DNA from: Siphonodentalium dalli
Lineage: Eukaryota > Mollusca > Scaphopoda > Gadilida > Siphonodentaliidae
Reading direction: 5' to 3'
Length of the DNA stretch: 64,000 nucleotides
Assembly: GCA_032622095.1 (NCBI GenBank)
Contig: CP136064.1
Span: 186,230,209 to 186,294,208 of the forward strand
In this document: piece by piece, positions 25,301 to 57,187 of the stretch
Layout: the number at the start of each line of letters is the position of its first letter
How positions within the stretch are numbered: the first letter of the stretch is position 1
Program-made: the position numbers and the translations under genes
Notes under the pieces: model-generated
What the model was told of the DNA's origin: nothing
Database searches by the model: none
What the model saw: the letters and a program-made list of their open reading frames with translations, nothing else

Positions 25301-28300
25301 GTTTAGTACTTGTGTATATACCTGTATACTATACGGTCGATAGTATTCTTGATACAATTAACGACCACGGACGCATGGTGTATAATTATAATGTACAGAG
25401 AGAGCATTGCTAACCCGTTAAGCAAATGGTCGAATCTCACACCCTATATAATTATGTGACGGTATTTCATTTTCTGAAGACATTTCATCTTTTAAGTCGT
25501 GGGCCGGATTCTTCGTATCTAGTTTAAATCACCGAGTTTAAACCAGGTTTAAAACTTCATTGGCGGGCCAGCCAAACCGGGTCTAAGTGGGCATTTTGGG
25601 CCGTTCGGTGGCTGATTCGGTAAGATGCAATTAAACTATACTCTGTTATCAGGCGGATAACAATTAAGTAAGCCGGTAAAATGATTATTGACCGCCCTCA
25701 ATTAACGCGAACAAGCTAGCACACATTTATAACAACCGTCGTGTTAGAATGAATTAATTGTGACATGAATACTAAGGGTGGATACACACATGCATGTAAT
25801 CTCTGTAATTATCGTGTATTTGGCGTTTTACATGGATCATACAGACAATGTAATATGTGTCCACTGACAATCCAATAATTGCCGACGTGTTGACCGGACT
25901 GAGTTCTAGTTCCAATTAAGTCGGAATGTAGAGAAACCGCTATCTTGGACCGAGTCGCCAGGCCACTTAAAATAATTGTTCGTGGGATAACCCATATGGT
26001 GGACGTTCTATTTAAATAATTACCAGTCCTCTCTTGATATTTATAGCAGTGGTCGATCAGGATTTCCCAGACGCAGGGGCTATATATGATCTCCGACATG
26101 GGGCTATATATGATCCCGAAAGCCACCAGACGGGGGTGGCTAACTCTGAGCTATTTAAGTAAAACATATTATATTGTACCTTCTTGCCCAGATTATTCCG
26201 ACCGATACATTCAACTAAGTCCCTTAGCTATTTGAAGCTTTCGAGACCCCACGCCAAACAAACGTCATGGTCGAACATGTTCTATATCAAGCCTGTATTA
26301 TATGCCAGACGTGTCGATTCTGGTGTTCGTGCATTAATAAAATGCCAGATATCACACAGACGTGACTACTTTCCGCATCCGTAAGAGAAGACATGTTTTG
26401 GACTGGCCTTAAATGTCCTGATAGCAGACAGTTTGACTTCGTTTATCACTACTCACTTGTCTGGCATGTTAACAATGAACCGCTCGCGCGCAGGTGATTA
26501 ATGTTGTCAATTATTGGTGTGGCCATGTAAAATACATGTCTTTTACATACAGAAATTACATGCATGTGTGTATCCACCCTAAGCCGCCACGCTCACCTTA
26601 TAGACACGCCGTCAATCGATAGTATGTATGGTCTGGCTGGACAAGGTTTCAACCTGATATGACGAATTTGTTTGTTTTTTTGTTTAACCCCTTCAGTGCC
26701 AAGTCCGATTTTTGTATCAACCCATATTTCCTTGATCATTTTTTCAAATTTATTGATTATAATAATGTGATGCATTGATGGAAAGAGCTCGGAATTGGCA
26801 CTGAAAGGGTTAAACATGTTTTATTCGTAGTTCAATATAAAATGGATTGGGGCACAAGAGTAGTATGAGCCACTTGTTGACGTCAATCGTAAAATTGGGC
26901 ATAAGTGTATTTTGAGTATGTTAGTACTATAGTACTATATATTTGAGAATGGTTGATAAAATTGGGCGTAAGTATATTTACGATATTTGAGGTTCACATT
27001 GCTTTGTGGCCGTATACAAATAAAACCAATTCATAGAACAGTATGTGTGTATATTGTTGTTTTGTAATCTCGGCCGACTAAATAATCTCAGCTTAAGACG
27101 GCTTATGTGTTTAAAGGTTCAGACAGGCATACATCTTACTGAAAATAATATCGGCCGACTATTAAATGGCGGACACATCAACTAAATAATCTCAGCTGTT
27201 TATCGCGTTAATGCTAATACGTCACATAATCTTATCACACGTACATATTAGCAGCTTATCGAACTATGCATACATACGCTCAAATAATATGTACAAGTGG
27301 GTATACATGCAATACTTGAAGTTACTTTGATGTTATTGTTATTTTGAACAAACTGAAAGCATGATGATGCAAGAAATTTTCAATTTGTTATGCTTATCGC
27401 TGTACCAATTGATTGTTTGTAATCAACGACAAAATGACCAACACGCCGAGAATGATTCATACCATGCTGATGATAAACACTGGAATGTATGCATTCATAC
27501 TGATGGTGACAATGGCCAAGATTACAGCGACTCGGACCAGTCCATCAGACGCCGTCCCGTCTATTCCATCATATAATTGTCTCCACAATGTTTTACCTGA
27601 AATAATTTGACGTCGTTGCTCTTACATAAATAATAAAGAGTGTTTATTCTTTACTTCTCTATCACGATGAAGTTATTGAGCATCGTGTATCGCTATTTCA
27701 CCAGAGGTCACACGTTAGATCGTGTACACGTATATACATATGTAACATCAGACTAAACAAAGCTGATATGTTTCGATTATTCGCGATTGTGACTGTAAAT
27801 AGGTCTATCGAGTATATGGCATATAGCGCCTCTTACCCGCACCTATTCATGCGCGTACACAATGTGTACGTGTCGGAGCACAAGACATCCAAATAATGAG
27901 TATTAGCTCGTAGTAAAGGAACGCTCTTTATTCATATTTCAGCATAAATGGCATCCGTGTATTATCGAGAATTATTGGAAAACATAGTAATGCGATAGCG
28001 AACATCAAACGAGTCTGCGCACGCATATATGTCAAAAGATACAATAGCAGTCATTGGTCAATTTATCCACGGTGTCAGCTCAGTACACAATCGGCACGAA
28101 GCCGGAGGTCAACTCAGTACACAATCGATTTCATCATGTCACCAGGTTACACATATCTATATAATAGAGTGTTCATATTGAAATCACTCATAATTGCATT
28201 GACATTTGGATAGGTAGGTTGTATTGTAGCCAATGTGATAAATTTGTATCCAGTACAAACAACACGAAGAGACGTTGTGAACGACAGCCTGAACTAACCA

Positions 28301-31300
28301 CGTTTCCCTTGTTTCTGTGCATAGAAGAACGCTCGATTTCACTGATTATATAGGAAAATGAAGTATCAATGTGAAGAGTGCTTAAGTGTCTATGCTTGGC
28401 AAGATAGTTTGAAGCGTCATATCAAAGTTAAACACACGCCTTCAGAACAATAACAACAACAATAACAGTATAATCAGCCACAACAACAACAACAACACCA
28501 CCAACAACAACAACAACAACAGTATCATCAGCAACAACAACAACAGTATCATCAGCCACAACAACAACAACAACAGTATCATCAGCCACAACAACAACAA
28601 CAACAACAACACCAACAACAACAACAGTATCATCAGCCACAACAACAACAACACCAACAACAACAACAACACCAACAACACCAACAACAACAACAACAGC
28701 CACCAAGCGACATAACATCCTGCTTTGATGATCCAATGGCCAAAATCCAGGAAGATTTTATTTTCAAGCATCCATTCACGGCATGTGTAAGTGGACCGAC
28801 ATCTAGTGGGAAGACGTACTTCGTGAAAACCTTGCTACAAAAGTCTGCCTCAAAAATATCACCCGCACCTGACAGAATAATATGGTTTTATAAATATTGG
28901 CAGCCCCTATATGACGAAATAAAGTATACCGTCACCCCTCATGTCAACTTTATACGAGGAATACCAGCAAACTTGGATTCTCTTATCAACCCCCGGTATA
29001 AAAATCTAGTTATACTCGATGACTTGATGCAAGCTTCATCAAAAGACCAGAGAGTTAATGATTTGCATTCCGAAGGAAGTCACCATTTGAACTTATCTTT
29101 GATAAGTTTGAACCAGAATTTCTAGTACAACAAAGATCCAACGCAACGACGAAATTGTCAATATTTGGTATTGTTCAATAACCCAATCGACAAGGGATTA
29201 ATTTCAACATTATCAAGACAGATGTATCCTGAATGTCCTCAGCGTATGGTTCGAGAGTTTTCGGAAGCGACGAGTGAACCGTACGGTTACCTACTGGTGG
29301 ATTTAAAAGCCGCAACACCGGACACATTACGTCTGCGACAGAATGTACTAAAAAGGGACACGAACCAACATATGGGTGAATGGAATGGCATGAAATACGA
29401 TGACAGAGAACACCCAGATGAACAGAATGGGATGAAAAAACATACAAAAGACACTGAGACCCAGGGTCAATAGAATGCGATGAAATACGATGACAGAGAA
29501 CTCCCTGGTCAAGGCATAGCATATAATTATATTGTGCCCCAGGGTCAACATAATGGGTATACTAAGGACATAAGGCCACCTGGTGAGCTCGATGAAATTA
29601 ATAAGAAGAACCGTCAAAACATAGACATTCGAGAAGACATGTCGTAACCTTGTAATGACTGCGGGCTTTTGTTCCAAGATCATTATGATGTTCAGAGGCA
29701 CGTAAAAAACTGGTGTAAAGAAAATAAGTTAAAACGAAAATTAACTGAGGACACGGATGATAGTCAGAATAAGAAAATTAAATTGAATGAAGATGAATAC
29801 TTCAAAAGTTTGTGTGATGAGAGTAGAGATAAAACACATGAGGAATGGAGTGATAAAGTGGAAACGTATAAGGCAAATGGCTCGACAGAAGCAAAAGAAC
29901 AAGCTGACAAGGACCTTAAAAGTGAACACATGAGGCAATTTATGAATGGTTATGCTTGGACAATAGTAGCGTATCTGCAGCTGCGCAATGGGACTCTGCA
30001 CAACAGAGTCATGGATAAAGTCGACAAATATTTGAATAATAGTTATGAAGATCGTGATGCAGTGAAAATGTCAATATTAAAGTACAAACCGATGCTAGAA
30101 ACATTCATGGACGAAACAAATGACACTTCTGACGAAAGTGATGACAATTCGGACGATTAAATTTCAATAAACTTCATCAACATGATATTCTCGTTTTCGT
30201 TAAATATCTATAAGCGGGGAGAGAGTGAGTGGATTATTGGGAATTGTAGAGTGAGAAACGATACGTAATGATAAAAGGCGCATTAAGAGCCCGAAAATTT
30301 TAACTTTAAATATTGTTCTGTGTCATTTTAACTTTCAACCACAGCGCTTGTATTGTTAACATTCATTCATAATGAGTGTCTTGTGTCCCTTTAGAGTGTA
30401 TTGTGTTCCTTTAATATTCAAACACCAAAATTGCATCACGTTCCTTGTTTCGTGTCACTTTAACTCCTTGAGTGTATTGCCCCTTCTAATGATGTCATAG
30501 CATGGGTACATGCAAGACAGTATAACACTATGACTATGTCTGTATCTGTTGTTGGGAAGATGTGAAATATAAATTTCAGTTCATTCGTGTAGTAATTTCG
30601 TATGAATGAAACACTCTTCATTCGTGTATTACCAACAGGAAGTTGTACTATTTTTCAAAGCAATCACGATGTGTAAAATTTTCATTAAATTACAATAAAC
30701 CAAGGGCTAAGGTGTAACAGGTTTATGGTCAAATAACCCAGAGTGACTTAATTCACAATGAAGTGGACAAACAATACATCTTGCATCTACAGTGGAGTCT
30801 ACTTCATTGTGAATTAAGTCACTCTGGGTTATTTGACCATAAACCTGTTACACCTTAGCCCTTGATTTATTGTAATTTAATGAAAATTTTACACATCGTG
30901 ATTGCTTTGAAAAATAGTACAACTTCCTGTTGGTAATACACGAATGTAGAGTGTTTCATTCATACGAAATTACTACACGAATGAACTGAAATTTATATTT
31001 CACATCTTCCCAACAGATACAGACATAGTCATAGTGTTATACTGTCTTGCATGTACCCATGCTATGACATCATTAGAAGGGGCAATACACTCAAGGAGTT
31101 AAAGTGACACGAAACAAGGGACGTGATGCAATATTGGTGTTTGAATATTAAAGGAACACAAGACACTCTAAAGGGACACAAGACACTCATTATGAATGAA
31201 TGTTAACAATACAAGCGCAGTGGTTGAAAGTTAAAATGACACAGAACAATATTTGAAGTTCAAATTTTCGAGCTCTTAAAGCGCCTTTTATCATTACGTA

Positions 31301-34300
31301 TCGTTTCTCACTCTACAATTCCCAATAATCCACTCACTCTCTCCCCGCTTATAGATATATAACGAAAACGAGAATATCATGTTGATGAAGTTTATTGAAA
31401 TTTAATCGTCCGAATTGTCATCACTGTCGTCAGAAGTGTAATTTGTTTCGTCCATGAATTTTTCTAGCATCGGTTTGTACTTTAATATTGACATGTTCAC
31501 TGCATCACGATCTTCATAACCATTATTCAAATATTTGTCGACTTTATCCATGACTCTGTTGTGCAGAGTCCCATTGCGCAGCTGCAGATACGCTACTATT
31601 GTCCAAGCATAACCATTCATAAATTGCCTCATGTGTTCACTTTTAAGGTCCTTGTCAGCTTGTTCTTTTGCTTCTGTTTCTGTCGAGCCATTTGCCTTAT
31701 ACGTTTCCACTTTATCACTCCATTCCTCATGTGTTTTATCTCTACTCTCATCACACAAACTTTTGAAGTATTCATCTTCATTCAATTTAATTTTCTTATT
31801 CTGACTATCATCCGTGTCCTCAGTTAATTTTCGTTTTAACTTATTTTCTTTACACCAGTTTTTTACGTGTCTCTGAACATCATAATGATCTTCGAACAAA
31901 AGCCCGCAGTCATTACAAGGGTACGACATGTCTTCTCGAATGTCTATGTTTTGACGGTTCTTCTTATTAATTTCATCGAGCTCACAAGGTGGCCTTATGT
32001 CCTTAGTATACCCATTATGTTGACCCTGGGGCACAATATAATTATATGCTATGCCTTGACCAGGGAGTTCTCTGTCATCGTATTTCATCGCATTCTGTTG
32101 ACCCTGGGTCTCAGTGTCTTTTGTATGTTTTTTCATCCCATTCTGTTCATCTGGGTGTTCTCTGTCATCGTATTTCATGCCATTCCATTCACCCATATGT
32201 TGGTTCGTGTCCTCTTTTAGTACATTCTGTCGCAGACGTAATGTGTCCGGTGTTGCGGCTTTTAAATCCACCAGTAGGTAACCGTACGGTTCACTCGTCG
32301 CTTCCGACAACTCTCGAACCATACGCTGAGGACATTCAGGATACATCTGTCTTGATAATGTTGAAATTAATCCCTTGTCGATTGGGTTATTGAACAATAC
32401 CAAATATTGACAATTTCGTCGTTGCGTTGGATCTTTGTTGTAGTAGAAATTCTGGTTCAAACTTATCAAAGATAAGTTCAAATGGTGACTTCCTTCGGAA
32501 TGCAAATCATTAACTCTCTGGTCTTTTGATGAAGTTTGCATCAAGTCATCGAGTATAACTAGATTTTTATAACGGGGGTTGATAAGAGAATCCAAGTTTG
32601 CTGGTATTCCTCATATAAAGTTGACATGAGGGGTGACGGTATACTTTATTTCGTCATATAGGGGCTGCCAATATTTATAAAACCATATTATTCTGTCAGG
32701 TGCGGGTGATATTTTTGAGGCAGACGTTTGTAGCAAGGTTTTCACGAAGTACGTCTTCCCACTAGATGTCGGCCCACTTACACATGCCGTGAATGGATGC
32801 TTGAAAATAAAATCTTCCTGGATTTTGGCCATTGGATCATCAAAGCAGGATGTTATGTCGCTTGGTGGCTGTTGTTGTTGTTGTTGGTGTTGTTGTTGTT
32901 GTTGTTGGTGTTGTTGTTGTTGTTGTTGTGGCTGATGATACTGTTGCTGTTGTTGTTGGTGTTGGTGTTGTTGTTGTTGTGGCTGATGATACTGTTGTTG
33001 TTGTTGTTGTTGTGGCTGATGATACTGTTGTTGTTGTTGTGGCTGATGATACTGTTGTTGTTGTTGTTGGTGGTGTTGTTGTTGTTGTTGTGGCTGATGA
33101 TACTGTTGCTGTTGTTGTTGTTGTTCTGAAGGCGTGTGTTTAACTTTGATATGACGCTTCAAACTATCTTGCCAAGCATAGACACTTAAGCACTCTTCAC
33201 ATTGATACTTAATTTTCCTATATAATCAGTGAAATCGAGCGTTCTTCTATGCACCTATATTTATATAGAACAGAAACAAGGGAAACGTGGTGGACTAGTT
33301 AACTAGTTCAGGCTGTCGTTCACAACGTCTCTTCGTGTTGTTTGTACTGGATACAAATTTATCACATTGGCTACAATACAACCTACCTATCCAAATGTCA
33401 ATGCAATTATGAGTGATTTCAATATGAACACTCTATTATATAGATATGTGTAACCTGGTGACATGATGAAATCGATTGTGTACTGAGTTGACCTCCGGCT
33501 TCGTGCCGATTGTGTACTGAGCTGACACCGTGGATAAATTGACCAATGACTGCTATTGTATCTTTTGACAGATATGCGTGCGCAGACTCGTTTGATGTTC
33601 GCTATCGCATTACTATGTTTTCCAATAATTCTCGATAATACACGGATGCCATTTATGCTGAAAGATGAATAAAGAGCGTTCCTTTACTACGAGCTAATAC
33701 TCATTATTTGGATGTATTGTGCTCCGACACGTACACATTGTGTACGCGCATGAATAGGTGCGGGTAAGTGGCGCTATATGCCATATACTCGATAGACCTA
33801 TTTACAGTCACAATCGCGAATAATCGAAACATATCAGCTTTGTTTAGTCTGATGTTACATATGTATATACGTGTACACGGTCTAACGTGTGACCTCTGGT
33901 GAAATAGCGATACACGATGCTCAATAACTTCATCGTGATAGAGAAGTAAAGAATAAACACTCTTTATTATTTATGTAAGAGCAATGACGTCAAATTATTT
34001 CAGGTAAAACATTGTGGAGACAATTATATGATGGAATAGACGGGACGGCGTCTGGTGGACTGGTCCGAGTCGCTGTAATCTTGGCCATTGTCACCATCAG
34101 TATGAATGCATACATTCCAGTGTTTATCATCAGCATGGTATGAATCATTCTCGGCGTGTTGGTCATTTTGTCGTTGATTACAAACAATCAATTGGTACAG
34201 CGATAAGCATAACAAATTGAAAATTTCTTGCATCATCATGCTTTCAGTTTGTTCAAAATAACAATAACATCAAAGTAACTTCAAGTATTGCATGTATACC

Positions 34301-37300
34301 CACTTGTACATATTATTTGAGCGTATGTATGCATAGTTCGATAAGCTGCTAATATGTACGAGTGATAAGATTATGTGACGTATTAGCATTAACGCGATAA
34401 ACAGCTGAGATTATTTAGTTGATGTGTCCGCCATTTAATAGTCGGCCGATATTATTTTCAGTAAGATGTATGCCTGTCTGAACCTTTAAACACATAAGCC
34501 GTCTTAAGCTGAGATTATTTAGTCGGCCGAGATTACAAAACAACAATATACACACATACTGTTCTATGAATTGGTTTTATTTGTACACGGCCACAAAGCA
34601 ATGTGGACCTCAAATATCGTAAATATACTTACGCCCAATTTTATCAACCATTCTCAAATATATAGTACTATATAGTACTAACATACTCAAAATACACTTA
34701 TGCCAAATTTTACGATTGACGTCAACAAGTGGCTCATACTACTCACATGTTACAAAACTTAATGAGCCCCTCTCCGGTATACATTTGTACTAAACAATTA
34801 GTTTAACAAAGTGGCACAATAAGTAACGTATTTACAGCTTCATGTGGTGAATGGGAAAGATGATTGATGGAAGATTGTAACAGATTATTGAGGAAGGATG
34901 AAATAAGAATGATGAAGGGGCCGGTGCCAACGCCGATTGTGTTTGCTATGCTGAGGCGAAACACATATGTTTTGATTGATAATTAATTTATTATCGTGAA
35001 ATGCGAATGTGTACATTAGAACCGCTGTCTAGGATTTAAGCCACGGAATTAGCTGTTTAACGACGGTTTAAACCTGGAGGTTTCCGTAAACCATGTTTTC
35101 ACCAGAGATGAAGAATCCACGCCACTCAGTTGATAATTACAAATTTCTGCCAATCGAAACACACGTGTAGATTACAAATGACCTGATAAATAGTATATGT
35201 CTTAAACTTCCATGCGCGGACAGCGCATGTACAGAACACTGGTACGATGAATGTTTTTCCTTTCGTTAACAGAGTATAAGAACGCTTTCAATGTGTTCGA
35301 TAAGGATGGCAGCGGTAAAATCACGACGAAGGAGATTGGCACAGTGCTCAGGACACTAGGACATAATCCGACGGAGAGGGAGCTGAAGGAGATGGTTGAA
35401 AAGGTGGATCTCAACGGTAATGTATTAACCCTTCAATGACGGGATCTTCCTGAATTTTTGCGAAAACCCTGTGCCAATGCATTCTCTTCTATATGCGAGT
35501 CGACCATAGGTCGCCTCGCATATATAAGAGAATGCATTGACCTAACAAATTTTACATTATTTTTTATAATTGCTAAATAATGTAAGAAAAAAAAATTAAA
35601 CTAATAATAAAAATTGTTAAAGAATGTAAGAAATAATGATAAAAAATTATAATTATTGTTAAAAAATTAAGAAAAAATGATAAAAATCTTTAAAGAATTT
35701 AAAAATTATAAAAATGATAAAATTGTTAAAGAATATATGACAACATGTTAAGAATTGTTATAGAATGTAAGATAATATTATAAAAAATGATAAAAATTGT
35801 TAAAGAATGTAAGAAAAAATTAAAAAAATTATTAAAGAATGTAAGAACAAAATGATAAAAAATGTTAGGCCAATGCATTCTCTTATATATGGGAGACGAC
35901 CTATGGTCGACTCGCATATATAAGAGAATGCATTGGCACAGGATCTTTAATGTTGCGCCAGCGCAGCTCCCACCATTAAAGGGTTAAAGGGGCCCAAGGC
36001 ACTCGCAGTGGGTAAATGTGCAAAAAATATAACAATCTGTAAGAACATCACCACTAAGAACATGGAGAAATGGGAAAGAGTTCTCCAGTAACTAATTAGA
36101 ATATTATGTAAAAAAAATGTTATAGCGATTTGACAGCAAACAGCAAAATAATGTAATAAGTTCAAATATTTTAGTCAGAATATTTTATGACCTTTTCCAA
36201 TGTTTACAGTCAAGTTTCGTTAATTCCGCTGTAATAGTAATGTTTACATATCAATGGTTTTGCCATACGAAATCTCATTACTTTATTTAATTTATTAATA
36301 GTGAAAATAAGAACAAAGTTAAAGTTTTCATATAGTTGTTGATGATCTATAGTTATTTTACATACTTCGCATGAACCCCGTTTGAAGGCATTTAGTCCCT
36401 TTAATAATATTTTGTGACATACATGTGCATACCATGGCTAGTATGCTACATGAGGATTGTCCAAGCAAATTGAAAAAAATCAGAGTTGACGAGAATTTCG
36501 AATAAGTGTTGACGAATGAACATAACAGAGAATAACATTGCCGAATTAAATCCGATCTGACTCCATGCAATTTAGTAAAATATTCCTGTACACATTTTCT
36601 GCTTATTGCCAGGGGAATTACAAACAAAAATTATTGCAGTCAATGTTTAGGACGCTCTTTACTATTGGCTGTTCATGGACAAGGAACCCATACATGCTCT
36701 TTAGACGAGAGATTATTTAAAGTTTTTAGCACCTGACCAAAATTCGAAAACATTATAAAACTGCTTCAGTTTTTTATGTCAACTAAGATGGATCATCCTC
36801 AGGTATTTGGCACAGTAGACCCCGACACCCAAAAGACATATGTGACCCTCCATATCAAATCCAGTCGGAAGTCGGGATTGTTTTACCCTGTGCCAATGCA
36901 TTCTCTTATATATGCGAGTCGACCATAGGTCGCCTCGCATATATAAGAGAATGCATTGGCTTAACAATTTTTTATCATGTTTTTTAAATAAATGTTTCTT
37001 ACAATTTTTAGGACATAAAATAAAAAAAACATCCATTACCCTGCAGGGAGCCCCACACATATATAGAAGCACACAGAAGAGTGTCGTCTGCTCATGTTTG
37101 TCTGGGGCTCTGTATGGGTGAAATTATAAAATTGTTATACAAGAACAAATTATTAAAATTGTAAAAAATTGTTAGGCCAATGCATTCTCTTATATCTGCA
37201 TGCGAGGCGACCTATGGTCGACTCGCATATATAAGAGAATGCATTGGCACAGGGTAAAAAAAAATCCCGACTTCCGACTGGATTTGATATGGCGGGTCAC

Positions 37301-43300: not shown

Positions 43301-46300
43301 ATGTCGTTTTTCAAACACCAGCGCCGCCATTATTATTTTTTTCCAAAAATATTTATGTTCTTGAATGTTGCATACAGGCGCTGGGTTTTTTTCTTTCTAA
43401 AATCGCTAGGATTGGCCAAACACCGCGAACATGACAACTTTAGAAAAATAACGGTACTTTTTCGTAACGCCCTCAGTTTGCCATACCAGCTTCATAGCAT
43501 TTCAGCAGTGCCCCGACACCATAGCAGACTAGCAGGACCACTTGACATGGGGTGAGCACCCTGTTTTCCAGGTTTTGTCACAGGGGCCTGTAACGCGCTC
43601 CGCTGTCCGCCCCCCTTTTGCACTGCCCATATACGCCGCCCTCTATACGCGCCTTCTTCGCGTTAATGGAACATTATATAGACAAGGGGCACTGTAGAAA
43701 TTCAACGTTTCACCATCGCTCGGGAGTCGCACAATTTAGCCCATTCACCCCAGTAATGATAACGATATATACTCGGATGGATCGGCAAAGAATTCATCTT
43801 TCAATAAATACCACAAACTCCCATCAGAAACATTCATACACGTTGCATTTGATTAAATTTTAACCACCGAATATTGTCTCCGGAGAGCGTATTTTTTCGA
43901 TTTGATCCGGCTCAGTAGCAATGGACGCCAAGCGTCTCTAAATTAACCACCCATACAGTTTACTATCATTAAAAATCGGTCAAACGATCAACTAAATATC
44001 TGGAACGTAGTTATTTCTTGTCGGCTAATAATTTATTTACTCATACAAATCAACACATTGTCAGTAATCAATTTCTATAGAGGAGAAATCTGTCGATAAT
44101 TCCAACATTTTTTCATTTTTTTTTACAAGTCGCACCGCCCCTCATTTAAATATTCATTGTGACTTGACCTCGATTAGAATACTGGACGCTGATTGGCTGT
44201 TCTACTATTTTCATTTTAGTAACCGCGAAGTTTAAAATCGATGCAATATTGACATGTCGAACTCGTGGTCTGCATGATAAATTTGTAAAAAATAATGTCG
44301 TTCAAAGCTATATATTAACTGGTAATTTCGTAACCATTGCAACAAAAACTAATTGCATAGGATGAATTTTATATTGTAAATCGAATATGTATGTTTTACA
44401 ACTCAACTTAGAAGAACATTCCAGTGAAATATAAGAACTAAATTGTCAAATATAAAGACATTTTTTTATAGAAGTTTTAATAAACCATTCAATAGCCACA
44501 GTAGCTATCTGGCAATGCCAGAAGGATTAATACAATCGTAAATGTCCAAATATTAAAATATGTATTAATCCGAATAGTCTAATTTGTTGGACTAATGTTT
44601 GACATCTCGTGTGTATCAACAATAGCGAATCAAATTTTAAACGGAGACAACAAACTGTCTGACTGTCGTGCGAGCGGCTTTTTTCTCTGCGTGGCACTGA
44701 ATTCAGCTACATTTCCATCTACAGCTGTTCTAAATTCTGGCATATACACATACAAATAATAGAACAAAATATAACGAACGAATTATATTCCACACGAATA
44801 TCCAACCGAAATAGCATACATGTGAAAACAAACTTTCAATAGACTGTCCCCACAGCAGTCTGATTCAGTCTCTCGCATCACGCGTGGTTAGTGGTTGCAG
44901 GAAAAAAGCGTGCGAATTTGATGACGGAAGAATCATAATATTTTGATACTCGATTCGAGTGGATGGATACAGCAAGGGCCAGAATAATTCGCTTTTTCGC
45001 CAATCGTGCGCCTTTGACAGTTTGGTACTGTATCGTATCTCGCTCATAATAAATATCGAGATGACAATATATGCATAAATACAAATATGTTTAAAGTGAG
45101 GTCCCCTCTTTGGGTATGTATTATAGATAAATATCCTTTCTAATGAGGCTGCACGGATTCATTGCTTGACTCGTAGAAATCGTTGATCCGCGCCTATCTG
45201 GATATATGCCTCTCCATTCAGGGACGGGATTTGGGGATGGCACTGGGGAGTCACTGGTGCGACATCATCGCTATTTCGATAGCCAATGGCTGTATATAAA
45301 TAAGCACTTGTTCAATTGTTGATTTGCATGTACTTCAAGATGTGTATACTTATTCGTATAATTTGTTTTGTTCCACAATTGATATTGACTTGCATAATAT
45401 AATACTCTCTTTCTTCCGCATGTATATAATCTCCAATCACGGATACATTTTCTTTGACATAACTCCACCAAAAAAAATTGAAAGTTAAACTTAAATTAAT
45501 TTATGATATCCATATTAGTTTCCATGTATATGTACAGACGTTCAGTGCTACGACATAACCAAATGGTCGTAATCAGGGCCCCACATAACAACACCTTAGA
45601 AACCCCCCATTATGTCTGCAAATAACATAACTTTGAGTGAGGTAAGGGACACGCGTACGCATGACTTCGCGGCGAAATGGTCTCAAATAGAAGGAGACGA
45701 ATTTGATCCCGACAGCATCCAACTCTGGAATCAAAATACCTGCCAATATCTCTCGCCCACAGAGGGTAAAGAATTTCTCTCAAATAACATAAAATTCTCT
45801 CTTTTTGGCATAAATTGAAGAAGCCTTAACGCAAATTATGAAGACCTGAAAAACCTACTCTGTGATTTGAATTCAGAAGAATATATGTTTGATGTTATCG
45901 CCCTGACAGAAATATTCAATGTGCATAGATCCTCAGACTTCTCACTTCCAGGATATCATCCCTTAGAATTTAATACTCGACCCGATGGCGACGATGGCAG
46001 AGGCGGTGTTGGTATCTATATATATACATCAAGAAAAATATACAATACAAACTAAAACCCGACTTGACAATATTTATACCCCACGTAATACAAACAATAT
46101 TTGTAGAAATACACCGAGGAGCGAACGATACTTACATAATAGGATGTATTTATAGACCAAATACAGCACCGAAGGCCGACTTGGACAAATTTATGTTGAA
46201 ATTCGATAATATCTTAGAGAAATTGAAAAAAGCCAAGTCTTACATAATAGGAGACCTCAACATTAACCTTCTCAATTTCGATACGCATGCAAAAACTAAC

Positions 46301-48843: not shown

Positions 48844-49006
48844 TTACTATCAGTTCCAGGTCTTACACGAGTCACTGTTTGTGTTACTGTCGGAATTTCA
48901 CATTGATTCACGATATTCAAGCGCTTGCAGCATGTGTTTTCCCAGTCGGATTTCCGTATAATTATAGTAGTGTTATCACCAGAAGAATAGCTGGCTCGTT
49001 AGTGTC

Positions 49007-49205
49007 ACATCTAAAAATAGAATTTGTGGGTCTAAAATTGGTTGTACTAAAATATTCCCAAAATATCAAAAACCCAAAAAAAAATTCAAAACTTCCAAAA
49101 TTTATTTTTTCCAAAAAATTTCAAAACTTCCAAAAAATTTCAAAATCCCCAAATTTCAAAAAAAGAAAAAATTTCAAAACCCCCCAAAATTATTTCTCTA
49201 AAAAA
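49007..49205. repeat. Terminal A-rich block of P2, left (partner 56945-57165)
   Basis: The phrase GGTCTAAAATTGGTTGTACT followed by AAATATTCCC and degenerate TTCAAAA words occurs at each outer end and again beside the centre (53650-53700, and inverted at 54080-54130). Each arm is thus bounded by the same block in direct orientation. Confidence 0.7.
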
Positions 49206-49567
49206 AAAGTTTAAATAAAAAATTTATAACGAGTTTTCGGTTTCTGATAATCTCGATATTAAAAAATGTCGAATGTTAAATTATTTGCGCGTAATATCTT
49301 TCGTTATTTTTTTTGTTCAAATATTTTTCATGAAATTATTAATCGATGTTTAGAAACAGCTTTATTGGACATTGTGACCATCGATATGAATGCATACATT
49401 CCAGTGTTTATCGGACGCAGTTCATATAATTGTCATACCTGAAAATAGACACCATTACTTTTACATAAATAATAAAGAGCGTTTATTCTTTACACTCTCT
49501 CTATCCCAGATGAAGTTATTGAGTATATGACAGGTGTGTATTATCGTGAATTATTGGAAGTATTGAG

Positions 49568-49783
49568 ATGTACTATCTTGAATCACGAGTGGACGAAAAG
49601 GGTAATGTGAAATTACAACCCTCCAGAATGAATTGTCATATTCGATGGAACATATTATGTACACGTAATCACACACGCGACATTGGTGGTAACAATGTGT
49701 CTTTCACACCTTTGCTTTACCAAATGAATTCTATTATTTCCCCGGTCACAGTTATATGCTGTTCAGAAAACATATCGATTTAA
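49568..49783 (+). CDS. Candidate small ORF of P2, left arm (71 aa)
   Basis: An ATG frame (MYYLESRVDEKGNVKLQPSR) ending CCSENISI. No family is recognised. It runs opposite to the other genes of its arm and follows the conserved motif GTATTATCGTGAATTATTGG by about 10 bases, which may be its promoter region. It is identical in the other arm. Confidence 0.35.
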   Translation: MYYLESRVDEKGNVKLQPSRMNCHIRWNILCTRNHTRDIGGNNVSFTPLLYQMNSIISPVTVICCSENISI

Positions 49784-50492
49784 TGTCTGAACAAACTGGT
49801 TAGTATCAATTAAGGTTGATAAACTGTGTCATTCACACGATAATTAGTTATCCAAAACATGCATACGACCAGGTCACTCAATAATAGAAATTGATTCGGT
49901 GTCATTGTTATAACAACATTACGTAATAACCACTTATCGCCCCACATTCATACTTACGCTTTGGACATTTTATCAGTTTATCACGTGATCACTAAATGTG
50001 GCAATCGGGTATCCTCCGATGCCTGCAATATATTATTTATAATAATTGGACTCATTGATCTCACGTGAATAATACTCTTAGTTGTTCCAATAAAATAGTT
50101 ATCAAATTCGATCACCAATAGATTTGACTGTGGAATGTAATGACCTTTAACTTATTTATCGATCTAAAGGGACACTCATTATGAATGAATGTTAACAATA
50201 CAAGCGCACGAATGAAGAGCGTTGAACATATACGAAATTACTACACGAATGAATTGAACCTTGAAATTTATATTTCACATCTTACCAACAACAGCTACAG
50301 ACATAATCATAGTATTATACTGTCTTGCATGTACACACGCTATGACATCATTAAAGGCGGACAATCCACTCACGGTGTGACAACAGATACGGACATAGGC
50401 ATAGTGTTATACAGTCTTCTATGTACCCACGCTATGACACCATTAACGTACATTGGATGTTAGGTCTATGACTCTTGAGTATGCACCAATCA

Positions 50493-50845
50493 ATGAGCAA
50501 ATGAGCAAAAAAATGAGCAAATGAGCAAAAAAATGAGCAAATGAGCAAGAAAATGAGTAAATGAGCAAGAAAATGAGCAAGCAAATGAGCAATAAAAATG
50601 AGCAAATGAGCAAAAAAATGAGCAAATGAGCAAGAAAATGAGTAAATGAGCAAGAAAATGAGCAAATGAGCAAGCAAATGAGCAATAAAAATGAGCAAAT
50701 GAGCAAAAAAATGAGCAAATGAGCAAGAAAATGAGCAAATGAGCAAGAAAATGAGCAAATGAGCAATAAAAATGAGCAAATGAGCAAGAAAATGAGCAAA
50801 AAAATGAGCAAATGAGCAAAAAAATGAGCAAATGAGCAAAAAAAT
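50493..50845. repeat. TGAGCAAA satellite in the P2 left arm
   Basis: About 350 bases made of ATGAGCAA units separated by A-runs or AATAA. Shorter arrays of the same unit lie at 53478-53572 and, inverted, at 54196-54285 on either side of the palindrome centre. The Cys/Ser/Phe-rich frames on the minus strand are artefacts. Confidence 0.85.
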
Positions 50846-52030
50846 GTAATTCTGCTGTGGTTAAGCAGTCCATTATTTAGGGCGTACCCGTATGTAGGCC
50901 TATCAGTGGATGAATAGTCTGCCGGAGAAGTACTGTGTAGACAGGTCTTGCCGGTAAGAGAGTCAGACGAGAAGTGAAGGCTCGGCTATTAAAACATAGT
51001 AATGCGATAGCGAACATCAAACGAGTCTGCGCACGCATATCTGTCAAAAGGATACAATAGCAGTCATTGGTCAATTTATCCCCGGTGTCAGCTCAGTACC
51101 CAATCGGGACGAAGCCGAAGGTCAACTCATTTTTTTTTGCTCATTATAGTACGTCACTTGGACATTTTATCAGTTTATCACGTGATCACTAAATGTGGCA
51201 ATCGGGTATCCACCGATGCCTGCAATTTATTATTTATAATAATTGGACTCATTGATCTCACGTAAATAATACTCTTAGTTGTTCCAATAAAATAGTTATC
51301 AAATTCGATCACCAATAGATTTGACTGTGGAATATAATGACCTTTAACTTATTTATCGATCTATGTTAGAACATGGTCTTAACAAAAAACTTGACCATAA
51401 CAAAAATTACCTTACTTTTATGCATGAATCTAATTAGACCATACGTAAATATTGTCAGCTTATCGTCTGATGAGCAAATCCGATGTTTATCAAAAATAGT
51501 ACAACTTCCAGTTGGTAATTACTCTTACGAATGAAGAGCGTTGAACATATACGAAATTACTACACGAATGAACTGAAATTTATATTTTCACATCTTACCA
51601 ACAACAGATACAGACATAGTCATAGTGTTATACTATCTTACATGTACCCATGCTATGACATCATTCGAAGGGGCAATACACTCAAGGAGTTAAAGTGACA
51701 CGAAACAAGGGACGTGATGTAATATTGGTGTTTGAATCTTAAAGGAACACAAGACACTCTAAAGGGACACTCATTATGAATGAATGTTAACAATACAAGC
51801 GCACGAATGAAGAGCGTTGAACATATACAAAATTACTACACGAATGAATTGAACCTTGAAATTTATATTTCACATCTTACCAACAACAGCTACAGGCATT
51901 ATCATAGGGTTATACTGTCTTGCATATACACACGCTATGACATCATTAAAGGCGGACAATCCACTCACGGTGTGACAACAGATACAGACATAGGTATAGT
52001 GTTATACAGTCTTCTATGTACCAATGCTAT
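50846..52030. repeat. Mosaic insertion in the P2 left arm
   Basis: Absent from the right arm. 51000-51125 matches P1 near 27986-28110 (GCGATAGCGAACATCAAACG). 51158-51363 duplicates 49960-50165. 51482-51757 matches the P1 centre flank near 30905-31205. 51758-52030 duplicates 50165-50447. It looks like recombination between P1-like and P2-like relatives. Confidence 0.7.
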
Positions 52031-52180
52031 GACATAATTAAAGGGGGATAATACACGCACGGTGTGGAATGTTAAAGTGACACGCGGTAAGGGACGTGAT
52101 GTAATATTGGTGAAACCCCCTCCCAGCTTATAGATATATAACGAAGACGAGAATAACATGTTGATGAAGTTTATTGAAAT

Positions 52181-52750
52181 TTAATCATTGTCTGAATCTT
52201 CGACCGTTAGATTTACTTCTAAGAGTTTCTTGAATTTTCTCATCGCTTCATCTGCAGCCCATTCATTATTATATCCGTGTTTGGTCAGTTTGACCATTTT
52301 CTTCATGATCATGGTATGTATGCGTGATGTTTTCAATCGATACTGGTATTCTATTAATCGTCTATAACTTTTGAGAAACAGAGCAAACTCTGTGTCGATG
52401 GTATCCTCTTTTCCCGACATGCTCTCATCTCCCGAAATGCTCTCTTCTTCTTTCACATCATTGGTGACGCGTTTCATCATACTTTTGAATGTGTCCATCT
52501 CGTTGACACATCGCGCAGCTTTCTTAAGACCGAATACCGTTCTACTACCGACGCCATTACCATCTTCTGAATCTGATAGCGTTCCACGTTCATCTTCATC
52601 TGAATCTAGAACCGCTTCGTCAGATTCATCGGTATCTTCTCCGAAGAGAGTTGGTTTTGTCTCGGACATAACTCCGTGTTTAATCTGTGTATGTCTTTGT
52701 AGATTGTAGTTCGTCGATAAAATAATGCCACATAAATCACACCCGTGCAT
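52181..52750 (-). CDS. C2H2 zinc-finger acidic protein, P2 left arm (189 aa)
   Basis: Starts MHGCDLCG with a C2H2 finger (C4, C7, H20, H25). A long acidic Ser/Asp/Glu-rich linker follows (DTDESDEAVLDSDEDERG), then a basic helical domain (about residues 120-180, FLKSYRRLIEYQYRLKTSRI and AADEAMRKFKKLLE) and an acidic end VEDSDND. The layout matches the C-terminal part of the P1 fusion gene (finger, charged linker, helical domain, acidic tail), so the two are probably homologous. It may be a virion- or DNA-associated protein, but the function is unknown. The minus-strand AATAAA lies at 52175-52170. The protein is identical to the right-arm copy and intact. Confidence 0.75.
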   Translation of the reverse strand: MHGCDLCGIILSTNYNLQRHTQIKHGVMSETKPTLFGEDTDESDEAVLDSDEDERGTLSDSEDGNGVGSRTVFGLKKAARCVNEMDTFKSMMKRVTNDVKEEESISGDESMSGKEDTIDTEFALFLKSYRRLIEYQYRLKTSRIHTMIMKKMVKLTKHGYNNEWAADEAMRKFKKLLEVNLTVEDSDND

Positions 52751-52931
52751 TATCGCGAATTATTGGAAGAACCATCACTCTTATAAGTAGCGATAAAAAG
52801 AGAGAATAAGGTGTGGTATACAACCGTCGCTCTAAGAGTACGTTCGTCCCGGGGCTAGGGTATAGATATTTGACCGCCGGTGATTCAATTAATGCCAATT
52901 TATCAGTATGGTACTCTATGTATTCATTCAT
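52737..52931 (-). CDS. Short middle frame, P2 left arm (64 aa)
   Basis: An ATG just after the stop of the 107-residue gene (MNEYIEYHTDKLALIESPAV). After about 45 residues it differs from the right-arm copy because of one base in a T-run, and it overlaps the start of the 189-residue gene. The differing C-termini mean at least one copy is altered or the frame is not a gene. Confidence 0.35.
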   Translation of the reverse strand: MNEYIEYHTDKLALIESPAVKYLYPSPGTNVLLERRLYTTPYSLFLSLLIRVMVLPIIRDNARV

Positions 52932-52938
52932 GATTTGG

Positions 52939-53262
52939 CTAATCGTATGACACTGGTCTTTTCATTTTCTTCTTATTATTAGACAAACCTCCAACAGACA
53001 CTCTCTTGTTGGTTTGTTTGGACGCTTTACGTGTGTTTGTCAACTTATTTGCTGCAACTTCAGCCTTAGCCATTTCAATCGCTTGAGCGATGGGTGTCAC
53101 CACGTTAATAAGTGGTTTTAGAACGTCTTCTTCACTATCACTATTTTTAGTTCTGTCAATAAAGTATCGACCCTGATTATCTGGTATTAACTTCCCATCA
53201 ACCATATCTCTGAAATGTTTTCTCCACATTTCAAGATCTGCTGGAATATACGGGATCGACAT
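52939..53262 (-). CDS. Unrecognised 107-aa protein, P2 left arm
   Basis: Starts MSIPYIPADLEMWRKHFRDM and ends with a basic, Lys/Asn-rich tail (NNKKKMKRPVSYD). The middle contains VVTPIAQAIEMAKAEVAANK, predicted helical. The PYIP-W-HF start is reminiscent of small proteins that accompany packaging-ATPase-like genes in invertebrate genomes, but this is from memory and uncertain. A TATA-like box lies upstream at 53334-53325. It is identical to the right-arm copy and intact. Confidence 0.7.
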   Translation of the reverse strand: MSIPYIPADLEMWRKHFRDMVDGKLIPDNQGRYFIDRTKNSDSEEDVLKPLINVVTPIAQAIEMAKAEVAANKLTNTRKASKQTNKRVSVGGLSNNKKKMKRPVSYD

Positions 53263-53689
53263 GTTTCTTCAAAATGTACAAGTCACTCTTTTTTCTGCAT
53301 TTTATTTTAGAAAGTTTATCGCCTCTTATAAAAATCGATTATTGGCCATGAATGCCAAATGCACCATGATAGTTATCGATGTCAATAATGCGTTTCGTTG
53401 AGATCTTGATTGAGTATGCACCAATCAATTAACAATGACACAGAATATCACACAAAGTATATTCAAGGGGGTGAGAAAAATGAGCAAATGAGCAAATAAA
53501 TGAGCAAATGAGCAAATAAATGAGCAAATGAGCAAAAAAATGAGCAAATGAGCAAATAAATGAGCAAGCAGGATGTTATGTCGCTTGGTGGCGGAGGTAG
53601 CATCACCAAATTACCCTCGGGGGACCTCATTCTGCCATCTAAAAATAGAATCTTTGGGTCTAAAATTGGTTGTACTAAAATATTCCCAA

Positions 53690-54075
53690 AAACCCAAAAC
53701 TTCAAAAATTTCAAAAAACTTCAAAAATTTCAAAAAATTTCAAAAACTTCAAAAATTTCAAAAACTTCAAAAATTTCAAAAAACTTCAAAAATTTCAAAA
53801 ACTTCAAAAATAAGACCCCGGCGGCGGTCGCCGCAGTAAAATACAGCAATGCCGCCGCCGCAGTAAAATACAGCAATGCCGCCGCCGCCGCCGGCGGCGG
53901 CGGACCCCGCAGTAAAATACCGCAATGCCGCCGCCGCCGGGGTCTTATTTTTGAAGTTTTTGAAATTTTTGAAGTTTTTTGAAATTTTTGAAGTTTTTGA
54001 AATTTTTGAAATTTTTGAAGTTTTTGAAATTTTTTGAAATTTTTGAAGTTTTTTGAAATTTTTGAAGTTTTGGGT
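53690..54075. repeat. Centre of palindrome P2: TTCAAAAA arrays around a GCC-rich core
   Basis: Arrays of AAAACTTCAAAAATTTC (53690-53810) and their complement (53945-54070) flank a core of GCC/GGC repeats (53818-53942). The unit GCAGTAAAATAC(A/C)GCAAT occurs three times in the core. The centre can fold into a very stable GC-rich hairpin. Frames through it are low-complexity. Confidence 0.8.
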
Positions 54076-54423
54076 TTTTGGGAATATTTTAGTACAACCA
54101 ATTTTAGACCCAAAGATTCTATTTTTAGATGGCAGAATGAGGTCCCCCGAGGGTAATTTGGTGATGCTACCTCCGCCACCAAGCGACATAACATCCTGCT
54201 TGCTCATTTATTTGCTCATTTGCTCATTTTTTTGCTCATTTATTTGCTCATTTGCTCATTTATTTGCTCATTTGCTCATTTTTCTCACCCCCTTGAATAT
54301 ACTTTGTGTGATATTCTGTGTCATTGTTAATTGATTGGTGCATACTCAATCAAGATCTCAACGAAACGCATTATTGACATCGATAACTATCATGGTGCAT
54401 TTGGCATTCATGGCCAATAATCG

Positions 54424-54433
54424 ATTTTTATAA
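54424..54433 (+). promoter_or_regulatory. TATA-like box of the 107-aa gene (right arm)
   Basis: TTTTTATAAG lies about 65 bases upstream of the ATG at 54497. The mirrored site is at 53325-53334. A second TATAAG lies at 54975-54980, about 30 bases before the 189-residue gene. The promoter role is inferred. Confidence 0.4.
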
Positions 54434-54496
54434 GAGGCGATAAACTTTCTAAAATAAAATGCAGAAAAAAGAGTGACTTGTACATTTTGAAGAAAC

Positions 54497-54820
54497 ATGT
54501 CGATCCCGTATATTCCAGCAGATCTTGAAATGTGGAGAAAACATTTCAGAGATATGGTTGATGGGAAGTTAATACCAGATAATCAGGGTCGATACTTTAT
54601 TGACAGAACTAAAAATAGTGATAGTGAAGAAGACGTTCTAAAACCACTTATTAACGTGGTGACACCCATCGCTCAAGCGATTGAAATGGCTAAGGCTGAA
54701 GTTGCAGCAAATAAGTTGACAAACACACGTAAAGCGTCCAAACAAACCAACAAGAGAGTGTCTGTTGGAGGTTTGTCTAATAATAAGAAGAAAATGAAAA
54801 GACCAGTGTCATACGATTAG
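54497..54820 (+). CDS. Unrecognised 107-aa protein, P2 right arm
   Basis: Mirror copy of 52939-53262 with the same protein sequence. The ATG lies about 65 bases after TTTTTATAAG (54424-54433). It is first of three frames pointing away from the centre; the next begins 7 bases after its stop. Basic C-terminus, no membrane segment or Cys motif; possibly nucleic-acid binding, by composition only. Confidence 0.7.
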   Translation: MSIPYIPADLEMWRKHFRDMVDGKLIPDNQGRYFIDRTKNSDSEEDVLKPLINVVTPIAQAIEMAKAEVAANKLTNTRKASKQTNKRVSVGGLSNNKKKMKRPVSYD

Positions 54821-54827
54821 CCAAATC

Positions 54828-55010
54828 ATGAATGAATACATAGAGTACCATACTGATAAATTGGCATTAATTGAATCACCGGCGGTCAAATATCTATACC
54901 CTAGCCCCGGGACGAACGTACTCTTAGAGCGACGGTTGTATACCACACCTTATTCTCTCTTTTTTATCGCTACTTATAAGAGTGATGGTTCTTCCAATAA
55001 TTCGCGATAA
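54828..55010 (+). CDS. Short middle frame, P2 right arm (60 aa)
   Basis: Same first 45 residues as the left-arm frame, then a different end (SDGSSNNSR). Its stop overlaps the next start codon as TAATG. The tight spacing looks like a gene series, but the TATA-like box of the following gene lies inside it. Doubtful. Confidence 0.35.
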   Translation: MNEYIEYHTDKLALIESPAVKYLYPSPGTNVLLERRLYTTPYSLFFIATYKSDGSSNNSR

Positions 55011-55579
55011 TGCACGGGTGTGATTTATGTGGCATTATTTTATCGACGAACTACAATCTACAAAGACATACACAGATTAAACACGGAGTTATGTCCGAGA
55101 CAAAACCAACTCTCTTCGGAGAAGATACCGATGAATCTGACGAAGCGGTTCTAGATTCAGATGAAGATGAACGTGGAACGCTATCAGATTCAGAAGATGG
55201 TAATGGCGTCGGTAGTAGAACGGTATTCGGTCTTAAGAAAGCTGCGCGATGTGTCAACGAGATGGACACATTCAAAAGTATGATGAAACGCGTCACCAAT
55301 GATGTGAAAGAAGAAGAGAGCATTTCGGGAGATGAGAGCATGTCGGGAAAAGAGGATACCATCGACACAGAGTTTGCTCTGTTTCTCAAAAGTTATAGAC
55401 GATTAATAGAATACCAGTATCGATTGAAAACATCACGCATACATACCATGATCATGAAGAAAATGGTCAAACTGACCAAACACGGATATAATAATGAATG
55501 GGCTGCAGATGAAGCGATGAGAAAATTCAAGAAACTCTTAGAAGTAAATCTAACGGTCGAAGATTCAGACAATGATTAA
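55010..55579 (+). CDS. C2H2 zinc-finger acidic protein, P2 right arm (189 aa)
   Basis: Identical in protein sequence to 52181-52750. The finger is CDLCGIILSTNYNLQRHTQIKH; the acidic linker and basic C-terminal helices follow. AATAAA at 55585-55590 directly follows the stop, in the same block (ATTTCAATAAACTTCATCAA) that follows the P1 ATPase-like gene. Identity of both copies implies a recent dimer or continuing gene conversion. Confidence 0.75.
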   Translation: MHGCDLCGIILSTNYNLQRHTQIKHGVMSETKPTLFGEDTDESDEAVLDSDEDERGTLSDSEDGNGVGSRTVFGLKKAARCVNEMDTFKSMMKRVTNDVKEEESISGDESMSGKEDTIDTEFALFLKSYRRLIEYQYRLKTSRIHTMIMKKMVKLTKHGYNNEWAADEAMRKFKKLLEVNLTVEDSDND

Positions 55580-56381
55580 ATTTCAATAAACTTCATCAAC
55601 ATGTTATTCTCGTCTTCGTTATATATCTATAAGTGGGGAGGGGGTTTCACCAATATTACATCACGTCCCTTACCGCGTGTCACTTTAACATTCCACACCG
55701 TGCGTGTATTATCCCCCTTTAATTATGTCATAGCATTGGTACATAGAAGACTGTATAACACTATACCTATGTCCGTATCTGTTGTCACACCGTGAGTGGA
55801 TTGTCCGCCTTTAATGATGTCATAGCGTGTGTACATGCAAGACAGTATAATACTATGATTATGTCTGTAGCTGTTGTTGGTAAGATGTGAAATATAAATT
55901 TCAAGGTTCAATTCATTCGTGTAGTAATTTCGTATATGTTCAACGCTCTTCATTCGTGCGCTTGTATTGTTAACATTCATTCATAATGAGTGTCCCTTTA
56001 GATCGATAAATAAGTTAAAGGTCATTACATTCCACAGTCAAATCTATTGGTGATCGAATTTGATAACTATTTTATTGGAACAACTAAGAGTATTATTCAC
56101 GTGAGATCAATGAGTCCAATTATTATAAATAATATATTGCAGGCATCGGAGGATACCCGATTGCCACATTTAGTGATCACGTGATAAACTGATAAAATGT
56201 CCAAAGCGTAAGTATGAATGTGGGGCGATAAGTGGTTATTACGTAATGTTGTTATAACAATGACACCGAATCAATTTCTATTATTGAGTGACCTGGTCGT
56301 ATGCATGTTTTGGATAACTAATTATCGTGTGAATGACACAGTTTATCAACCTTAATTGATACTAACCAGTTTGTTCAGACA

Positions 56382-56597
56382 TTAAATCGATATGTTTTCT
56401 GAACAGCATATAACTGTGACCGGGGAAATAATAGAATTCATTTGGTAAAGCAAAGGTGTGAAAGACACATTGTTACCACCAATGTCGCGTGTGTGATTAC
56501 GTGTACATAATATGTTCCATCGAATATGACAATTCATTCTGGAGGGTTGTAATTTCACATTACCCTTTTCGTCCACTCGTGATTCAAGATAGTACAT
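56382..56597 (-). CDS. Candidate small ORF of P2, right arm (71 aa)
   Basis: Mirror copy of 49568-49783, with an identical protein. It points toward the palindrome centre, converging on the 189-residue gene. The function is unknown. Confidence 0.35.
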   Translation of the reverse strand: MYYLESRVDEKGNVKLQPSRMNCHIRWNILCTRNHTRDIGGNNVSFTPLLYQMNSIISPVTVICCSENISI

Positions 56598-57187
56598 CTC
56601 AATACTTCCAATAATTCACGATAATACACACCTGTCATATACTCAATAACTTCATCTGGGATAGAGAGAGTGTAAAGAATAAACGCTCTTTATTATTTAT
56701 GTAAAAGTAATGGTGTCTATTTTCAGGTATGACAATTATATGAACTGCGTCCGATAAACACTGGAATGTATGCATTCATATCGATGGTCACAATGTCCAA
56801 TAAAGCTATTTCTAAACATCGATTAATAATTTCATGAAAAATATTTTAACAAAAAAAATAACGAAAGATATTACGCGCAAATAATTTAACATTCGACATT
56901 TTTTAATATCGAGATTATCAGAAACCGAAAACTCGTTATAAATTTTTTATTTAAACTTTTTTTTTAGAGAAATAATTTTGGGGGGTTTTGAAATTTTTTT
57001 CTTTTTTTGAAATTTGGGGATTTTGAAATTTTTTGGAAGTTTTGAAATTTTTTGGAAAAAATAAATTTTGGAAGTTTTTAAATTTTTTTTGGGTTTTTGA
57101 TATTTTGGGAATATTTTAGTACAACCAATTTTAGACCCACAAATTCTATTTTTAAATGTGACACTAACGAGCCAGCTATTCTTCTAT

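Follow-up and report, generated by a model that had tools for sequence, protein, structure and literature searches.

Putative palindromic Polinton derivatives with genes in both arms in the scaphopod Siphonodentalium dalli

Polintons or Mavericks (polintoviruses, adintoviruses) are elements of 15–20 kb with terminal inverted repeats. A passage of PMC12220804 names a target-site duplication of 6 bp, produced by an rve integrase, as a Polinton feature, and a passage of PMC8097293 gives (AG)3//(CT)3 or (AGT)2//(ACT)2 as the end motif of vertebrate Mavericks. Two elements of the scaphopod Siphonodentalium dalli, here called P1 and P2, can be compared with them. Both lie in the window, a stretch of 64 kb (C4:186230209-186294208) to which all positions without a contig name refer, in a genome of 2.23 Gb on nine contigs that was searched for relatives; further places read in this genome carry L numbers. 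P1 and P2 share with Polintons the 6-bp target duplications and the terminal inverted repeats, since their arms reach the ends of the elements; P1 also shares AGT-type ends and a packaging-ATPase gene, and P2 a small gene of a 17-kb Polinton. Unlike Polintons, elements of the P1 and P2 types measure 5–10 kb, are without polymerase and integrase, and consist mostly of inverted repeat, with their genes present twice. On the sequence comparisons below, we consider it probable that both are non-autonomous Polinton derivatives which were palindromic before insertion and depend on a helper.

No report of palindromic Polintons was found among the papers listed for Polinton and palindrome terms in an open-access literature that leaves most subscription journals outside. 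Palindromic defective genomes are familiar from adenoviruses, whose symmetric left-end recombinants ('SYREC') need a helper. P1 and P2 would resemble them in their protein-primed linear genome type, in the mirroring of one end and in the need for a helper. SYREC genomes are molecules of infection, whereas P1 and P2 are chromosomal inserts and P2 forms a multi-copy family in the assembly. By this analogy, P1 and P2 may work like the palindromic defective genomes of end-primed viruses.

Structure, insertion and copy number of the palindromes

P1, of about 7.9 kb, is 97.2% identical to its own reverse complement from 26858 to 34744, over 7938 alignment columns. A comparison of its arms (26858-30768 and 30797-34744) gave 61 substitutions in 3908 aligned bases and 43 gap columns. 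A sequence-only reading of the window had described P1 as fully palindromic with genes in both arms, and this is borne out by the self-alignment and by the open reading frames (ORFs) of each arm. P1 starts with AGTAGTATG and ends with CATACTACT, and its end motif AGTAGT//ACTACT is the (AGT)2//(ACT)2 form given for vertebrate Mavericks. At its centre, the sequence runs 38 nt past the arm before turning back, and these 38 nt belong to a stretch that goes on in L014, L017, L019 and L011.

The same reading took P2 as two inverted arms with genes. P2 is indeed a gene-bearing palindrome, although not a fully symmetric one: an outer pair (48981-50446 with 55719-57185) is 99.25% identical, an inner part (51758-56002) pairs with its own inverse at 97.5%, and between them 50447-51757 is unpaired, so that inverted pairs cover 84% of the element. 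There are 27 substitutions between the arms. Because the two further copies L040 and L041 hold the 1.3-kb stretch in both arms, the P2 of the window has most likely lost 1.3 kb from its right arm, between 284-bp direct repeats (D7). P2 starts with AGAAGAATAG and ends with CTATTCTTCT, with the end motif AGAAGA//TCTTCT, a variant of the listed vertebrate Maverick motifs. Beside its centre, at 53636-53708 and 54059-54131, lies sequence like the outer terminal repeat, as if a small terminal-repeat palindrome stood there.

The kinship of P1 and P2 proposed earlier was upheld. They share non-coding blocks, with 12 same-strand and 12 opposite-strand matches of at least 60 nt at E<=1e-6 (0 of 100 with shuffled P2). 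Their termini, described as similar, are related but not identical (AGTAGTATG in P1, AGAAGAATAG in P2).

Table 1. Positions of P1, P2 and their parts in the 64-kb window
Feature	Position	Strand	Remark
P1, putative palindromic Polinton derivative	26859..34743	.	self-alignment; ends (AGT)2...(ACT)2
P1 target-site duplication, left copy CACAAG	26853..26858	.	right copy 1 base different
P1 target-site duplication, right copy CACATG	34744..34749	.	
P1 left-arm gene, zinc-finger/poly-Q/A32-like ATPase/zinc-finger, degenerate	28358..30160	+	3 in-frame stops after poly-Q part
P1 right-arm copy of zinc-finger/poly-Q/A32-like ATPase gene, degenerate	31402..33225	-	1 in-frame stop after poly-Q part
P1 centre, 28 nt separating innermost matched arms	30769..30796	.	
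P2, putative palindromic Polinton derivative in a young multi-copy palindromic family	48981..57185	.	
P2 target-site duplication, left copy ATCACC	48975..48980	.	exact
P2 target-site duplication, right copy ATCACC	57186..57191	.	exact
P2 unpaired 1.3-kb stretch, left arm only	50447..51757	.	in both arms of L040 and L041
P2 left-arm C2H2 zinc-finger protein ORF, 189 aa from ATG	52181..52759	-	zf-C2H2 weak, below Pfam cut-off
P2 left-arm small protein ORF, 107 aa from ATG	52939..53268	-	also in 17-kb Polinton
P2 centre, GC-rich hairpin sequence	53811..53956	.	common, with variation, to five P2-type places read
P2 right-arm small protein ORF	54491..54820	+	DNA identical to left copy, 330/330 bases
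P2 right-arm zinc-finger ORF	55001..55579	+	DNA identical to left copy, 579/579 bases

Since Polinton-like ends and a 6-bp duplication enclose the whole element in each case, P1 and P2 were each inserted as one unit. Across independent insertions with both ends found, the duplication is exact in 15 of 18 and agrees in 5 of 6 bases in the other three (P1, L013 and L024/25). Fifteen of these insertions are palindromic or partly inverted (13 exact; L018 only weakly inverted), and three are 17-kb Polintons (2 exact). Exact duplications among P1-type and 17-kb elements are those of L011, L014, L015, L016, L017, L018, L020/21 and L022/23. Outside this count stand L010, L012 and L019, where the two ends were not both located, L026-L028, and L009 as a duplicated region. 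Eight further P2-type copies were tried. Six had both ends within the fetched stretches, and all six had exact and mutually different duplications (AGTAAC, ATGGTG, CTCGTT, GCTGTT, GATGTG, AATTAG); the fetched stretches of the copies at C9:47.54 and C7:171.90 did not hold both ends. With the P2 of the window, exact duplications thus flank seven of seven P2-family insertions with both ends.

A genome search with 54300-55600 as query, in which the best 40 of 2218 candidates were scored, gave 41 matches at 99–100% identity in 24 places on all nine contigs (C1 3, C2 6, C3 1, C4 1, C5 1, C6 6, C7 1, C8 1, C9 4). In 15 of these 24 places the gene region stands as an inverted pair, minus then plus, with 3.7 kb between the copies at C6:91.29 and 0.2 to about 1 kb elsewhere. 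A single gene copy was found in the other nine, one of which (L034) was read and has its other arm without genes in the stretch read. Two of the 15 paired places, at C2:129.50 and C2:129.57 Mb, hold a third gene copy (minus, plus, plus). In L040 and L041 the 7 kb read is symmetric, with arm identities of 99.0 and 99.2%, and four P2-type elements measure 9639, 10280, 9993 and 9535 bases from end to end. One centre with a varying GC-rich hairpin is common to five places (P2, L034, L036, L041, and L040 with L035). Divergence between elements is 0.1–0.4% in and around the genes and 1.3% in 51758-52118 (10 arm rows, 5 places). Judged from these sequences, the P2 family is young, and P2, not P1, is the amplified family. 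The common centre, the inverted pairs, the separate exact duplications and the near-identical copies would be explained best if the palindrome formed once and the whole of P2 then moved as a palindrome. The sequence-only reading had held that its view would fail if all other copies were ordinary monomers; many further genomic copies are palindromic or partly so.

Some methods of library preparation and sequencing are known to produce palindromes as an artefact, and fold-back reads or false joins could in principle imitate such elements. Here the arms differ by the substitutions given above, matching 6-bp duplications stand at the flanks and differ from place to place, and the inverted pair recurs in most of the P2-type places, which makes an assembly or read artefact barely credible. 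It is also very unlikely that two ordinary copies were inserted head to head or nested, or that an inverted duplication arose within the chromosome after insertion. Duplications do occur here, as one duplication of P1 together with its flanks gave rise to L009, at a distance of about 1.15 Mb. However, a single 6-bp duplication encloses the whole element wherever both ends were found, one centre is common to five P2-type places, and inspection of the P1 centre revealed neither target duplication nor Polinton end; the terminal-repeat-like sequence at 53636-53708 is without end motif and is alike in the five places read. The artefact, the head-to-head insertion and the in-place duplication were therefore rejected on arm differences, enclosing duplications and the common centre.

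The flanks of L009 match those of P1 at 97.5 and 99%, one of them lying about 1 kb off the element in L009. Two transpositions were rejected for this pair, as the common flanks indicate a single insertion that was later duplicated. Just left of P1, at 23559-26570, about 797 bp (93.5%) stand as a separate inverted repeat around 1.4 kb; this stretch, too, is matched by the duplicated flank of L009 (L002).

Gene palindromes of the host, kept by gene conversion between arms and with mobile ends as an incidental addition, would be in accordance with the observation that arms are in general more similar within an element than between elements. Against this stand the many copies on all nine contigs with separate target duplications, the Polinton ends and the virus-type genes, and we regard such an origin as extremely improbable.

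Gene content and the 17-kb Polintons of the same genome

The gene that is degenerate in both arms of P1 is open in L010, where it has 593 codons. Its product comprises, from the N to the C terminus, a zinc finger, a stretch rich in glutamine, an A32-like ATPase and another zinc-finger region. The L010 ORF matches Pfam Pox_A32 with 26.8 bits (cut-off 22.8), and its zinc-finger matches stay below their own cut-offs. For the P1-type protein 130 relatives were found; the 120 listed include proteins of scallops, Mya, Mytilus and Pinctada, the best named ones being from scallops. The zinc-finger ORF of P2 is similar to the P1 protein in the C-terminal part of the latter, with 22% identity and an E value of 4e-8 for the single comparison. 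The small protein ORF of P2 shares 82% identity with part of an ORF in the 17-kb Polinton L021, over 71 residues. All four P2 ORFs are open in P2, L040 and L041, with 0–2 residue differences, and the arms of P2 show zero substitutions over 52127-53517 and 49358-50399. The virus-like character of the genes, claimed from the sequence alone, is upheld.

No B-family polymerase and no rve integrase were found among the ORFs of P1 and P2, nor any ORF for double jelly-roll major capsid or penton proteins. An A32/FtsK-type packaging ATPase is not in P2; the P1 type has one, degenerate in P1 itself. Because their own polymerase, integrase and capsid genes are absent, P1 and P2 are classed here as probable non-autonomous derivatives of new architecture. 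This refines the earlier reading, in that P1 and P2 are not self-sufficient as Polintons. A homologue search with the P2 zinc-finger protein found none, a search of viral contigs with the ATPase gave no relative, and solved structures searched by sequence gave no match. In PHROGs no useful match was obtained, the best ones falling in the glutamine-rich part.

The P1-type gene is one that decays after insertion. Its overall ratio of non-synonymous to synonymous polymorphism (pN/pS) is 0.83 in 12 near-full copies. In 20 rows, variants confined to single arms comprise 127 non-synonymous, 34 synonymous and 14 stop changes, and those common to at least two insertions comprise 19 non-synonymous, 9 synonymous and 0 stop changes. 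For the P2 type, only three coding variants were seen in 10 arm rows of five places, all non-synonymous; these copies are too alike, and the family too young, for a selection test.

Three 17-kb elements of this genome are ordinary Polintons and candidate helpers, with inverted ends that are 96–99% alike and measure 1.7 kb in L020/21, 2.0 kb in L022/23 and about 2.5 kb in L024/25. L020/21 carries DNA_pol_B_2 (1.6e-34), rve (1.1e-11) and a chromodomain. L023 has a DNA_pol_B_2 match, L022 a weak adenovirus-protease match below cut-off, and no long polymerase ORF was seen among the ORFs of L024/L025. Relatives of a capsid-type ORF of L022 include proteins named F54H12.2-like. For one relative (P0121), a predicted model with a predicted local distance difference test score (pLDDT) of 86.4 matches the double jelly-roll major capsid proteins of PBCV-1, Sputnik and mavirus as well as viral capsid models.

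An inner terminal block of P1 of about 0.9 kb is 92–95% like L020-L023, its outermost 0.3 kb is 80–82% like L022/L023, and its ATPase type shares 34% identity over 156 columns with the ATPase of L022. DNA matches of at least 200 nt between P1 or P2 and L020-L025 fall in terminal, non-coding and small-gene parts, and in L024 also in the ATPase gene. The P2 end type AGAAGA occurs also in L014, L017, L018 and L024/25. A zinc-finger ATPase gene region with inverted blocks was observed at 2485-6820 of L024, inside a 17-kb element with P1-type ends.

Origin of the palindromes

We infer that P1 and P2 arose by fold-back and use the polymerase, the integrase and perhaps the capsid of a helper. According to this scheme, one end of a linear Polinton-type DNA and the genes near it would have been copied back on itself, either because a replicating strand folds back or because one end is replaced by a copy of the other, and the same terminal repeat would therefore stand at both ends. 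Such a palindromic molecule would keep two valid ends for the protein-primed polymerase and the integrase of the helper, and the helper integrase would insert it with a 6-bp target duplication. For P2, a single origin would have been followed by spread as a palindrome.

The P1 family shows where such copying may have turned. Full P1-type arms end near arm position 3911, and the inverted second arm starts at about 3911 in P1, 2304 in L011, 2044 in L013, 2869 in L014, 3144 in L015, 2149/2576 in L016 and 2603 in L017. L011, L014, L015 and L017 have long spacers between the arms; L019 has one gene copy and the right end, and no second arm in the stretch read. Breakpoints and spacers that vary in this way would be expected if fold-back left a single-copy spacer, or under end replacement. 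In a tree of 20 arms, the arms of one element pair in five of eight cases (support: P1 63, L013 92, L014 86, L015 85, L016 98). Moreover, 63 of 93 shared-variant cells are in both arms, as compared with a mean of 20% and a largest value of 55% in 200 random pairings of arms (L009 omitted from pairing). L018 was set aside as a palindrome case, since internal deletion of an ordinary monomer explains its structure equally well. Long inverted arrangements of P1-type terminal blocks, with arms 98–99% alike, were observed in L026, L027 and L028 (C6:145.51-145.53, 160.60-160.61 Mb), and L027 holds a further palindrome inside.

End replacement without single-strand fold-back, in which the right end of a Polinton-type molecule is exchanged for a left-end copy from a second molecule, is known from poxviruses and Streptomyces chromosomes. 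It yields the same product as fold-back, and the long spacers suit both equally. However, the 38-nt turn of P1 suits an intrastrand turn better, and the GC-rich hairpin at the centre of P2 is a natural turning point, so we judge end replacement rather unlikely. It is also possible that the partial palindromes descended from one full palindrome, most readily in L011 and L015.

Several observations weigh against the origin and helper-dependent spread favoured here. L011 and L015 have one spacer end in common, which could reflect a common palindromic ancestor with later deletions. Pairing of arms in the 20-arm tree fails for L009, L011 and L017, the support of 63 for P1 is low, and the ratio of shared variants in both arms to those in one arm is 6:6 in P1 and 5:7 in L009; gene conversion would likewise make arms alike. 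The junctions, which were read by eye, show little microhomology (1 base in P1, 3 bases in L016), and an automatic junction comparison gave template context in one of nine views. The comparison of shared with single-arm variants gives no significant sign that the P1-type gene was under selection while it spread (19:9 against 141:34 with stops included, Fisher p 0.14). On the side of the helper, intactness was shown for none of the three 17-kb elements that were read, and in L020 a stop splits the polymerase frame. No 17-kb element was found that carries the end of P2 itself, no genome search with that end having been completed. Finally, no transposition was observed.

Fold-back is known from other settings. 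In the part of PMC3907307 that concerns chromosomal fold-back inverted duplications, a direct copy, a single-copy spacer and an inverted copy follow each other with microhomology at the turn. This is the arrangement seen here, although that passage deals with chromosome breaks and the present case with a mobile element and integrase-type insertion. Stem-loop copying of miniature inverted-repeat elements (Izsvak et al., as cited in a passage of PMC8268682) likewise has a nascent strand fold back and serve as its own template, but that proposal applies to short elements and tandem repeats; in that passage palindromes concern miniature elements, and Polinton appears as a label only. Similarities also extend to two further systems. 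Foldback transposons (FB, Galileo) have very long inverted repeats but belong to other transposase families and are not known to carry doubled virus-type genes. Self-complementary parvovirus vectors, whose genome is its own complement, differ in being engineered and in their hairpin-primed replication.

Elsewhere in the window, 35466-36972 holds three copies of a self-complementary-looking sequence (GCCAATGCATTCTC...) with an AT-rich repeat at 35568-35864. ORFs for reverse transcriptase or endonuclease, like those of non-LTR (long terminal repeat) retrotransposons, lie at 8088-11168, 17085-19868 and 46193-46831.

Implications for Polinton biology

A tentative extension, which we hold to be somewhat doubtful, is that P2 is a self-complementary Polinton satellite. 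Its single strand would exploit the protein-primed replication of the helper by folding into a hairpin of about 5 kb in which an end is regenerated, and its arms would correct each other. The doubled genes, for the zinc-finger protein and a small virion-associated protein, would affect either the helper or packaging, and P2 might thereby compete with the helper like a virophage or a defective interfering genome while spreading in the germ line.

Size filters in surveys could miss palindromic derivatives. One survey dropped Polinton-like elements below 10 kb (in a passage of PMC4028283), and another kept insert sizes of 6–80 kb (in a passage of PMC12220804). In S. dalli, the little-differing P2 copies with open frames make transcription and presence or absence in populations testable at once. 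Long palindromes are thought hard to replicate and keep; here a palindrome of about 10 kb appears to be the moving unit. Our results offer sequence evidence on Polinton replication, as linear, end-primed and prone to turn back, and P1 and P2 suggest a class of Polinton satellites.

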